In this document: piece after piece, positions 36,204-39,397 of the stretch | How positions within the stretch are numbered: the stretch's first letter is position 1 | How the letters are laid out: each line of letters begins with the position of its first letter | NCBI RefSeq assembly: GCF_036967205.1 | Contig: NZ_CP146022.1 | Location: 2,294,001 to 2,358,000, forward strand | Direction of reading: 5' to 3' | DNA length: 64,000 nucleotides | DNA from: Streptomyces sp. Q6 | GTDB lineage: Bacteria > Actinomycetota > Actinomycetes > Streptomycetales > Streptomycetaceae | Program-made: the position numbers and the translations under genes | Notes under the pieces: model-generated | What the model was told of the DNA's origin: nothing | What the model saw: the letters and a program-made list of their open reading frames with translations, nothing else | The model's database searches: none

Positions 36204-37097
36204 GTGAACAGCAGCACCCGCACCCCCGCCACCGCCGGCGCCGTCCCCCGCAACCCGATCGGGGGTCACGTGCCCGTCGCCGGCGGGCTCGCCTCCGTAG
36301 GTCTGTCCTACGCCGAGGAGCTGAAGGCCGAGGCCGTCCAGGTCTTCGTCGCCAACCCGCGCGGCTGGGCCACTCCCCCGGGCAACCCGCGGCAGGACGA
36401 GGAGTTCCGTGAGCGGTGCGCCGCCGGGAACATCCCGGCCTACGTGCATGCCCCGTACCTGATCAACTTCGGCTCGCACACCGAGGCCACGGTCGAGAAG
36501 TCCGTCGAGTCGCTGCGGCACTCGCTGCGCCGCGCCCGTGCCATAGGCGCCCTCGGTGTCGTCGTGCACACCGGCTCCGCGACCGGCGGGCGCGAGCGTG
36601 CCGTGGCTCTCGCCCAGGTCCGCACGCACATGCTTCCGCTGCTCGACGAGCTGACCCACGACGACGACCCGTTCCTGCTCCTGGAGTCGACCGCGGGTCA
36701 GGGTTCGTCGCTGTGCTCGCGCACCTGGGACTTCGGCCCGTACTTCGACGCCCTCGACCACCATCCGAAGCTGGGCGTCTGCCTGGACACCTGCCACATC
36801 TTCGCGGCGGGCCACGACCTCACGGGTCCCGCCGGGATGCGCCAGACCCTGGACCTGCTGGTGGAGACGGTCGGCGAGGGCCGCCTCAAGCTGATCCACG
36901 CCAACGACTCCAAGGACGTCGTCGGCGCGCACAAGGACCGTCACGAGAACATCGGCTCCGGCCACATCGGCGCCGACCCGTTCCGCGCGCTCATGTCCCA
37001 CCCGGCGACGGAGAACGTCCCCCTGGTCATCGAGACGCCCGGCGGCAAGGAAGGACACGCGGCGGACGTGGCCCGCCTCAAGGAGCTCCGCCCGTAG
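36204..37097 (+). CDS. Deoxyribonuclease IV (Nfo-type AP endonuclease)
   Basis: Zinc-dependent AP endonuclease of the AP2 family, base excision repair. 297 residues. The metal-ligand stretches are all present: 'GGHVPVAGGL', 'YVHAPYLINFGS', 'VVHTGSATGG', 'LLLESTAGQGSS', 'LGVCLDTCHIFAAGHD', 'LIHANDSKDVVGAHKDRH' and 'LVIETPGG'. Start GTG 36204. The stop codon lies inside a 16-bp tandem duplication. Confidence 0.93.
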   Translation: MNSSTRTPATAGAVPRNPIGGHVPVAGGLASVGLSYAEELKAEAVQVFVANPRGWATPPGNPRQDEEFRERCAAGNIPAYVHAPYLINFGSHTEATVEKSVESLRHSLRRARAIGALGVVVHTGSATGGRERAVALAQVRTHMLPLLDELTHDDDPFLLLESTAGQGSSLCSRTWDFGPYFDALDHHPKLGVCLDTCHIFAAGHDLTGPAGMRQTLDLLVETVGEGRLKLIHANDSKDVVGAHKDRHENIGSGHIGADPFRALMSHPATENVPLVIETPGGKEGHAADVARLKELRP

Positions 37098-37127: not shown

Positions 37128-37156
37128 TTGAGGAATACCCCTGGGGGGTATACGGT
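37128..37156 (+). promoter_or_regulatory. Promoter with embedded CsoR-like copper operator
   Basis: -35 TTGAGG (37128-37133), 17-bp spacer, -10 TACGGT (37151-37156). The spacer contains a 7-bp inverted repeat ATACCCC-TGG-GGGGTAT (37135-37151), the G-tract palindrome bound by CsoR/RcnR-family metal sensors. A repressor there would block RNA polymerase until copper (or a related signal) releases it. No csoR gene is in the window. Confidence 0.72.
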
Positions 37157-37198
37157 TCTTGTCGAGCGACAGGAACCGCTACTGACGTTGGGGGACCC

Positions 37199-37747
37199 AT
37201 GCGGCACGAGACGCACACCGGCCACGAGCACCACCACGAGCCCGAGCACCGGAGCCAGGACCAGCAGCACCAGCAGCACCAGCAGCACGCAGACCACCAC
37301 ACCCACGGCCAGGTCTCGTGGTCCATGGCCGCCCAGGCCACGCTGCACTGCCTCACCGGCTGCGCCATCGGCGAGATCCTCGGCATGGTGATCGGCACCG
37401 CGCTCGGCTGGGGCAACCTGCCGACGATGATCCTGGCGATCGTGCTCGCGTTCGTCTTCGGCTACTCGCTCACGCTGCGCGGCGTCCTGAAGGCGGGTGT
37501 CGACTTCAGGACGGCGTTCCGTGTCGCGCTGGCCGCGGACACGCTGTCCATCGCGGTGATGGAGCTGATCGACAACGGCGTCATCGCGCTCTGGCCGAAC
37601 GCCATGGACGCGCACCTGGACGACCTGTTGTTCTGGGGAGCGCTGGCCGCGTCCCTGGCGATCGCCTTCGTCGTCACGACGCCGGTCAACCGCTGGATGA
37701 TCGGCCGCGGCAAGGGCCACGCGGTGGTGCACCAGTACCACCACTGA
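37199..37747 (+). CDS. His-rich DUF4396 membrane protein, probably copper-induced
   Basis: 182 residues. The first 37 are dominated by His, Gln and Glu ('HETHTGHEHHHEPEHRS', then QHQQHQQHADHHTHG), a likely metal-binding tail. Four membrane helices of the DUF4396 type follow ('ATLHCLTGCAIGEILGMVIG', 'MELIDNGVIALWPNAM'), and the C-terminus ends in HQYHH. Behind a CsoR-like operator, it is likely a copper (or other soft metal) handling or transport protein; function is inference. ATG 37199 follows a GGGGGA stretch. Confidence 0.85.
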   Translation: MRHETHTGHEHHHEPEHRSQDQQHQQHQQHADHHTHGQVSWSMAAQATLHCLTGCAIGEILGMVIGTALGWGNLPTMILAIVLAFVFGYSLTLRGVLKAGVDFRTAFRVALAADTLSIAVMELIDNGVIALWPNAMDAHLDDLLFWGALAASLAIAFVVTTPVNRWMIGRGKGHAVVHQYHH

Positions 37748-37770: not shown

Positions 37771-38403
37771 CTAGAGCTCGGGGCCTTCCCCGGGCTCTTC
37801 CTGGTACGAGTAGCGCTGCTCACGCCACGGGTCTCCCACGTTGTGGTAGCCGCGCTCCTCCCAGAAGCCCCGCCGGTCCGCGGTCATGTACTCGACTCCG
37901 CGGACCCACTTGGGGCCCTTCCAGGCGTACAGGTGCGGGACCACGAGGCGCAGCGGGAAGCCGTGCTCGGCGGTGAGCTGCTCACCGTCCTTGTGGGTCG
38001 CGAACATGGTCCGGTCGTCGGCGAAGTCGGCCAGCCGCAGGTTCGACGAGAACCCGTACTCGGCCCAGACCATCACATGGGTGACCCCGGGGTCCGGGGG
38101 CGCGAGCTCCAGGATCGTGGACGCGCGGACGCCACCCCACTCGGCGCCGAGCATGCTGAACTTCGTGACGCAGTGCAGATCGCCGACCACGCTCGTATAC
38201 GGCAGCGCCGAGAACTCCTCGTGGTTCCAGCAGTGCTTCTCGCCGTCGGCGGTGGCCCCGAAGACCCTGAACTCCCAGCGCTCGGGGCGGAACTTGGGCA
38301 CCGGGCCGTAGTGCGTGACCGGCCAGCCGCGCTGGAGCCGCTGCCCCGGTGGAAGCTCCGGTTGCACCGCTCCCCCAGACTCTCGACCCACCGGATGACC
38401 CAT
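37771..38403 (-). CDS. Sulfite oxidase-like (molybdopterin-dependent) protein
   Basis: 210 residues from ATG 38403, which has GGAGG four bases upstream. 'GDLHCVTKFSMLGAEWGGV' carries the Cys that ligates molybdenum in the sulfite-oxidase/YedY fold, and 'HGFPLRLVVPHLYAWKGPKWV' is the matching pterin-binding segment. No signal peptide is seen, so a cytoplasmic enzyme of the 'sulfite oxidase-like oxidoreductase' group. Substrate unknown. Confidence 0.88.
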   Translation of the reverse strand: MGHPVGRESGGAVQPELPPGQRLQRGWPVTHYGPVPKFRPERWEFRVFGATADGEKHCWNHEEFSALPYTSVVGDLHCVTKFSMLGAEWGGVRASTILELAPPDPGVTHVMVWAEYGFSSNLRLADFADDRTMFATHKDGEQLTAEHGFPLRLVVPHLYAWKGPKWVRGVEYMTADRRGFWEERGYHNVGDPWREQRYSYQEEPGEGPEL

Positions 38404-38579
38404 GCCTCCATCCTGACAGACCCCGGGCAGTGGACGTGACCACGCGGGCGCCGACGGGCCGCCGTCGATCATCGATTCGGGCAACTCCTACTAAGCGTGC
38501 ACTTACTGGACGCGTTTCGGCACCGGTGCGAGGATGCGCCGAAACCTGCCCAGTCACCCGCGTGGAAGGAGCCTCTGCG

Positions 38580-39059
38580 ATGCAGGGCGACCCCGAGGTC
38601 ATCGAGTTTCTCAACGAGCAGCTGACCGCCGAACTGACGGCGATCAACCAGTACTTCCTGCACGCCAAGATGCAGGAGAACTTCGGTTGGACCAAGCTCG
38701 CGAAGTACACGCGGTCCGAGTCGTTCGACGAGATGAAGCACGCGGAGGTGCTGACCGACCGGATCCTGTTCCTGGACGGTCTGCCGAACTACCAGCGCCT
38801 GTTCCACGTGCGGGTCGGCCAGACGGTCACGGAGATGTTCCAGGCGGACCGGCAGGTCGAGGTCGAGGCGATCGACCGGCTGAAGCGGGGCATCGAGGTG
38901 ATGCGCGCCAAGGGCGACATCACGTCCGCAAACATCTTCGAGTCGATCCTCGAGGACGAGGAGCACCACATCGACTACCTGGACACGCAGCTGGAGCTGG
39001 TCGAGAAGCTCGGCGAGGCGCTCTACATCGCGCAGCTCATCGAGCAGCCGGAGAGCTGA
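38580..39059 (+). CDS. bfr: Bacterioferritin
   Basis: 24-subunit iron store with a dinuclear ferroxidase centre. 159 residues. Canonical residues fall at the expected numbers: Glu18, Glu51, His54, Glu94, Glu127 and His130 for iron, and Met52 for the inter-subunit haem. ATG 38580 has GGAAGGAG nine bases upstream. Its stop codon directly abuts that of the convergent bfd gene. Confidence 0.96.
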   Translation: MQGDPEVIEFLNEQLTAELTAINQYFLHAKMQENFGWTKLAKYTRSESFDEMKHAEVLTDRILFLDGLPNYQRLFHVRVGQTVTEMFQADRQVEVEAIDRLKRGIEVMRAKGDITSANIFESILEDEEHHIDYLDTQLELVEKLGEALYIAQLIEQPES

Positions 39060-39326
39060 TCAGGCGGCTTCGGGAAGCTCGACCCGGGCGGCCTGGGCCA
39101 CCTGGGCGACCTGCGGCTCCAGCGCCGAGGACGCCTCTCCCTGGTCGACCAGTTCCCGGCGGGGGCAGGCGCCCCGGCCGAGCAGCGCCTGGATCCGGCG
39201 TACGCACGAACCGCAGTCGGTACCGGCCTTGCAGGCCGAAGCTATCTGCCGAGGGGTGCAGGCACCGTCCTCCGCGTGCTTCTTGACCTGCGCCTCAGTG
39301 ACACCGAAGCAGTTGCAGACGTACAC
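39060..39326 (-). CDS. bfd: Bacterioferritin-associated ferredoxin (Bfd-like)
   Basis: Small [2Fe-2S] protein that reduces bacterioferritin to release stored iron. From GTG 39326 (GGGAGG eight bases upstream) 88 residues; Cys4, Cys6, Cys38 and Cys41 ('VYVCNCFGV' and 'TDCGSC') form the usual cluster set, followed by an unusual acidic/Ala-rich tail of about 30 residues. GTG 39335, three codons earlier, is possible but abuts the binding site. An iron box lies upstream. It converges on bfr with no gap. Confidence 0.9.
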   Translation of the reverse strand: MYVCNCFGVTEAQVKKHAEDGACTPRQIASACKAGTDCGSCVRRIQALLGRGACPRRELVDQGEASSALEPQVAQVAQAARVELPEAA

Positions 39327-39397
39327 GCGGTTCACCTCCCGGTCGGTTCGAGGTCGAGACTCATGGGCAGTGCCGTCCCGATGGATCGTCCCGATTG

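Follow-up and report, generated by a model that had tools for sequence, protein, structure and literature searches.

A CsoR-type operator in the promoter of a gene for a His-rich DUF4396 membrane protein in Streptomyces sp. Q6

The DUF4396 locus and its product

The stretch of Streptomyces sp. Q6 DNA analyzed here (64,000 nucleotides; the window) encodes a 182-aa membrane protein of the DUF4396 family (37199..37747, + strand), recognized from Pfam, the sequence itself, and an AlphaFold2 model. Upstream on the same strand is a gene for an AP_endonuc_2 TIM-barrel protein (36204..37097), which ends 30 bp before the -35 element of the DUF4396 promoter. The downstream neighbor, a molybdopterin oxidoreductase gene (37771..38484, - strand), is convergent, so the DUF4396 unit appears to be monocistronic and the operator in its promoter appears to serve this gene alone. 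Inspection by eye of the open reading frame list also places a bacterioferritin-like gene and a convergent BFD-like gene next to the locus (38349-39335).

The promoter was read directly as a -35 hexamer, TTGAGG (37128..37133, + strand), and a -10 hexamer, TACGGT (37151..37156, + strand), separated by a 17-bp spacer (37134-37150); it is absent from the list produced by a strict sigma-70 scan. An earlier note on this DNA had described a perfect 7-bp inverted repeat, ATACCCC-TGG-GGGGTAT, inside the spacer. The palindrome is indeed perfect, but it takes up 16 of the 17 spacer bases and runs one base beyond them (37135..37151), its last T being the first T of the -10 hexamer. The operator stands 47 bp before the start of the gene at 37199, and GGGGGA (37190..37195, + strand) is a candidate ribosome-binding site found by reading the sequence. 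The operator is the sole match in the window at up to three mismatches, for a chance expectation of 0.83 matches.

Copper CsoR operators of Streptomyces (type 2) obey a TAC-N9-GTA inverted-repeat rule, with G/C tracts and outer AT-rich repeats (PMC3902906). The window site follows this rule: written as ATA-CCCCTGGGGGG-TAT, it has two G/C tracts with AT-rich repeats outside them, 11 bp apart. The RcnR (type 1) operator, which needs one uninterrupted G/C tract and AT repeats 6-9 bp apart, was rejected for this site. The CsoR sites measured in Streptomyces lividans are those of csoR, copZA1, and copZA2, with the consensus ATATACCCCTNAGGGGTATAT (PMC3902906). The core of the csoR operator among them, ATACCCCTGGTGGGTAT, for which CsoR binding was shown by calorimetry (PMC3902906), is one base from the window site, and that base completes the palindrome.

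The protein matches the full length of the Pfam DUF4396 model (PF14342; positions 1-141 of 141, E value 6.5e-46, 156.6 bits against a gathering cutoff of 27). The AlphaFold2 model (mean pLDDT 79.4, pTM 0.64, tails at low confidence) predicts four long helices at residues 41-69, 73-98, 103-131, and 143-170, in agreement with the four-helix membrane protein described earlier. Both His-rich ends are also as the earlier note had them. Of residues 1-37 (37199..37309, + strand), 24 are His (13), Gln (7), or Glu (4), and the C terminus carries HQYHH (37730..37744, + strand); 133 of 134 orthologs have a His among their last three residues. Four Lys/Arg residues lie in the loop between TM2 and TM3 and three in the C-terminal tail, whereas the remaining two loops have none. 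The positive-inside rule therefore predicts a cytosolic location for both tails. The N-terminal tail is acidic (two Lys/Arg versus six Asp/Glu) and uninformative on this point. His-rich tails can also bind Ni, Zn, and Co.

Invariant positions in 69 actinobacterial sequences include His50, Cys51, Gly54, Gly58, and Gly62, as well as Asp114, Ser117, Met121, Glu122, and Asp125, and Cys55, Glu59, and Met63 are nearly invariant. Spaced by four residues, Cys51, Cys55, Glu59, and Met63 share one face of helix 1. The His50-Cys51 pair (37346..37351, + strand; codons checked) is invariant more widely, in 22 aligned sequences of which 17 come from outside Actinobacteria, together with Gly54, Gly58, Gly88, Ser117, Trp146, Pro162, and Asn164. 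Cys55 is replaced by Asp in 10 of those 17 sequences, and Glu59 and Met63 are variable there.

No relative of the protein was found by sequence in the PDB. A multicopper oxidase was rejected, as Pfam finds no Cu-oxidase domains in the window protein. So was a DmeF-type CDF transporter: the NCBIfam match scores 17.1 bits against a cutoff of 250 and probably arises from the His-rich stretch, and no CDF domain is among the Pfam matches.

Copies of the operator in the genome and before orthologous genes

The earlier note had suggested comparing the motif with the copZ/copA and csoR promoters across the genome, and this comparison came out in its favor. A pattern search of the 8.95-Mb genome returned four perfect copies: the one before DUF4396, one before copZ-copA, and two between a copA and a gene for a secreted protein. 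The reversed control pattern gave no match at zero mismatches. At up to three mismatches the operator matches 65 places and the control 44, so only near-perfect sites carry meaning. The site at 3073141 precedes copZ, whose product has an MTCGHC motif, and a copA frame that encodes CPCALGLA. The sites at 3845670 and 3845717 are flanked on one side by a divergent copA frame, open for 770 codons, and on the other by the gene of a secreted-looking protein that matches YtkA weakly; counting a third site with two mismatches, three sites fall inside 100 bp here (C1:3845634-3845733). A further site, at 4000677, has one mismatch and precedes a CsoR-family gene (csoR). The csoR and copZA genes of this same genome thus carry the window-type operator, as expected of the Streptomyces copper CsoR operator, and the window operator is a further site of an already known kind.

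The likeness to the S. lividans CsoR regulon lies in operator sequence, spacing, position in the promoter, and the kinds of genes that carry the operator. It differs in that DUF4396 is absent from the three targets named in the available part of PMC3902906. The available part of PMC6414726 names further putative CsoR targets, none of which could be mapped to DUF4396 here.

We also searched for the operator within 450 bp upstream of DUF4396 genes in a sample of 135 actinobacterial loci that includes the window. DUF4396 was located in 134 of these (131 distinct proteins), the exception being L148, which gave no match. The operator is perfect in 95 of the 134 and present at up to three mismatches in 123. 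For the first 110 loci the corresponding counts are 79 and 100; 1,529 control segments from those loci contain no perfect copy and about 0.9% match at up to three mismatches. The 11 loci where no operator is visible at that threshold are L043, L082, L086, L092, L108, L111, L118, L119, L121, L125, and L142, and L125 offers only 37 upstream bases. Orthologs of this group tend to have His-poor tails.

The bases around the operator are far less constant. In 117 distinct sites with at most two mismatches, a selection that itself favors conserved arms, positions at least 10 bases beyond the operator carry 0.05-0.51 bits, and the GG of the -35 and the T-A-N-G-G-T of the -10 carry 0.15-1.57 bits. The hexamers are conserved in part, at 44, 46, 44, 38, 74, and 75% for T, T, G, A, G, and G of the -35 and 92, 73, 39, 56, 79, and 82% for T, A, C, G, G, and T of the -10. 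Gene order matters little: of 80 named loci, the 40 that share the neighborhood of the window keep the operator in 36 cases and the 40 that do not keep it in 35, indicating that the operator travels with the gene and not with the place. The same 80 loci (4-10.6 kb) contain no match to a CPC-type ATPase pattern and, in a single case, a CsoR gene, which leaves the operator as their only link to copper.

Across 150 Streptomycetaceae genomes, perfect sites average 2.5 per genome with DUF4396 (n = 70) and 1.375 per genome without it (n = 80), these being raw averages that ignore kinship; the reversed pattern has no match in any of the 150. Two loci (G102, C1:582593-583133; G103, C1:977561-977912) have DUF4396 in pieces, possibly through sequencing error, with a perfect operator still upstream. 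G102 has a second, whole copy.

The CsoR-family regulator

Three CsoR-family genes were identified in the genome. The product of csoR at the 4000677 site has, by eye, the Cys and His-x3-Cys of copper CsoR, a Cys-His-Cys ligand set that we take to be the mark of a Cu-type CsoR; its best NCBIfam match is RicR (136.2 bits, below the cutoff of 175). The other two genes (in the regions C1:163000-172500 and C1:486000-494000) are CstR-like, encoding two Cys and no His, and adjoin rhodanese-like genes and in one case also a TauE-like gene (all by eye).

CstR-type regulators belong to the same repressor family and bind a similar palindrome, which raises the question of whether the operator belongs to a sulfur-sensing CstR-type paralog, so that the gene would respond to persulfide. 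The persulfide sensor of Streptomyces coelicolor, ScCsoR, binds ATACC-N6-GGTAT (PMC7533328). Spacing distinguishes the two kinds of site, as the window operator has N7, one base more. The three N6 sites of the genome are 1.6, 2.3, and 3.7 kb away from the two CstR-like genes, whose regions contain no N7 site at up to one mismatch. ATACC-N7-GGTAT occurs seven times, as five G-tract sites and two without G tracts, the latter equaling the control count of 2. The one-base difference therefore parts copper from CstR-like sites in this genome.

The same split was observed, with exceptions, in other Streptomycetaceae, for which we took 30 three-kb loci per site type, one per genome. The 17-bp and 16-bp patterns are of unequal stringency (four versus three G/C per arm). 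Among 17-bp-site loci, 27/30 match copper genes or DUF4396, none of the 30 matches the sulfur genes tested, and 3 match neither; with DUF4396 left out, a match to copA/copZ, csoR, or the secreted protein remains in 21/30. The 16-bp-site loci match sulfur genes in 17/30 cases and the copper set in 3, one of them through DUF4396 itself, and 10 match neither. Apart from such exceptions, CstR/ScCsoR operators have other neighbors, and a persulfide response of the window gene is very improbable. As judged from spacing, the window operator is on the copper side of the split, and a copper CsoR is the likely regulator of DUF4396. A palindrome without any regulator is barely conceivable: matches with two or three mismatches are not rare, but the operator stands before most of the orthologs despite diverged flanks, and its reversed form is missing from all 150 genomes.

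Overall, regulation of the DUF4396 gene by CsoR is well supported at the level of sequence. The earlier reading of the palindrome as a CsoR operator gains from the genome-wide sites, the conservation before DUF4396 genes, the site counts, the S. lividans match, and the spacing relative to persulfide sites.

Contexts of DUF4396 and its predicted role in copper handling

The domain occurs in bacteria and haloarchaea. A tblastn search gave 73 plasmid records with DUF4396, of which 22 were taken with 3-6 kb flanks and 21 were annotated. A copper gene is present in the flanks or in the same protein in 14/21 annotated contexts, as a raw count: Brasilonema, Rhizobium, Kineococcus, Haloarcula, Deinococcus, Sphingomonas, Caballeronia, Rhodanobacter, Chroococcidiopsis, Variovorax, Bradyrhizobium, Phyllobacterium, Halorussus, and Nostoc. 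Kineococcus was counted by its CsoR-family, HMA, and heavy-metal ATPase genes, none of which is labeled copper, and Haloarcula by a plastocyanin-type protein. Upstream of the Kineococcus DUF4396 no CsoR site was found, although a CsoR-family gene is close by. No explicit copper gene is seen in the other seven (Staphylococcus casei, two Streptomyces, Frigoribacterium, Halalkalicoccus, Kozakia, and Methylobacterium); on one of these Streptomyces plasmids, genes for a metal-sensitive regulator and a heavy-metal ATPase are found at a distance of 5-6 kb. On the S. casei plasmid (2,505 bp), DUF4396 is the only annotated gene.

Some homologs are physically joined to an oxidase. Five of the 14 contexts encode long homologs (611-682 residues), and in all five DUF4396 is followed by three Pfam matches to Cu-oxidase domains; by eye, a His-rich linker lies between the two parts in the fusions L152, L161, L166, L169, and L170. 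DUF4396 is followed by a copper oxidase gene in Chroococcidiopsis (domains confirmed) and in Nostoc, and in Caballeronia it adjoins cytochrome c oxidase genes. The proteobacterial fusions and cyanobacterial gene pairs share with the window protein the core, the His-Cys pair, and a Pfam score above the cutoff. Unlike the window protein, which has a His-rich tail and lacks an oxidase domain, they have additional N-terminal sequence containing roughly two further hydrophobic stretches, and their oxidase is part of the same protein or encoded by the next gene. These contexts and fusions outside Actinobacteria support, for copper, the suggestion of the earlier note that the protein acts in metal transport or buffering.

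When bound to its operator CsoR is in the apo form, and it is released by Cu(I) (PMC3902906), so the DUF4396 gene is expected to be on at high cytosolic copper. Such a pattern favors defense over uptake, and the product is very probably a copper-defense protein. At low copper, apo-CsoR would occupy the promoter spacer and block RNA polymerase; Cu(I) would remove it, turning on DUF4396 along with the copZ-copA, copA, and csoR genes. The encoded protein would span the inner membrane with four helices and have both tails in the cytosol, where the His-rich N-terminal tail and the C-terminal HQYHH may gather Cu(I) on the inner side. Copper would then be passed into or across the membrane by the His-Cys pair early in helix 1, which is extended in Actinobacteria by the Cys51-Cys55-Glu59-Met63 stripe; this stripe is predicted to face Asp114, Ser117, Met121, Glu122, and Asp125 of helix 3. 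Where the domain is fused or adjacent to a multicopper oxidase, as in other phyla, that oxidase would oxidize the delivered Cu(I). On balance we favor this reading, in which the protein, induced by copper through the CsoR operator, probably takes Cu(I) and hands it into or through the membrane. A broader proposal is more tentative: DUF4396 might represent an unrecognized class of copper membrane protein, in which four helices form a Cu(I) conduit or relay around the His-Cys pair. Cytosolic His tails would feed it in Actinobacteria; elsewhere it would be coupled to a multicopper oxidase outside the membrane that oxidizes the exported copper, making export and oxidation a single unit.

Two other fates of the copper were considered. 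The protein could act by copper-induced buffering only, its membrane part serving as an anchor and its tails holding Cu(I) until export by CopZ/CopA, with no passage through the membrane. The tails would suit such a role in that their length varies widely (5-78 residues in 132 measured) and their richness in His persists (median 28%, range 0-42%). Conservation, however, peaks in the membrane core and not in the tails; a Pseudonocardia ortholog (L103) with almost no tail retains the operator at two mismatches; and homologs outside Actinobacteria keep the core without this N-terminal tail, most of those sampled also keeping copper neighbors. We consider buffering alone unlikely. Still less probable is delivery, in which Cu(I) is handed to an exported multicopper oxidase or a cytochrome oxidase and excess copper merely turns the pathway on. 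The oxidase fusions and neighboring genes, including those of Caballeronia, would be explained in this way, but no such oxidase was noticed among the window neighbors (three proteins scanned with Pfam), and control by CsoR marks defense more than supply. Transfer of Cu(I) into or through the membrane as part of defense thus remains the reading that we prefer.

If correct, this reading connects a domain that is widespread but functionally unassigned with the best-studied copper switch of Streptomyces, in which copper influences development and antibiotic production. DUF4396 gains a testable role, the CsoR regulon gains a member beyond the known pump and chaperone, and the oxidase fusions give the same copper prediction in unrelated phyla. 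A 2012 study in JBC reportedly describes the S. lividans CsoR regulon with a list of predictions, and the DUF4396 gene may already be in that list. A literature search for PF14342 found nothing, and no link between DUF4396 and copper CsoR was found in the parts of the literature covered by our search. The available part of PMC7760498 mentions DUF4396 at the edge of a heavy-metal cluster.
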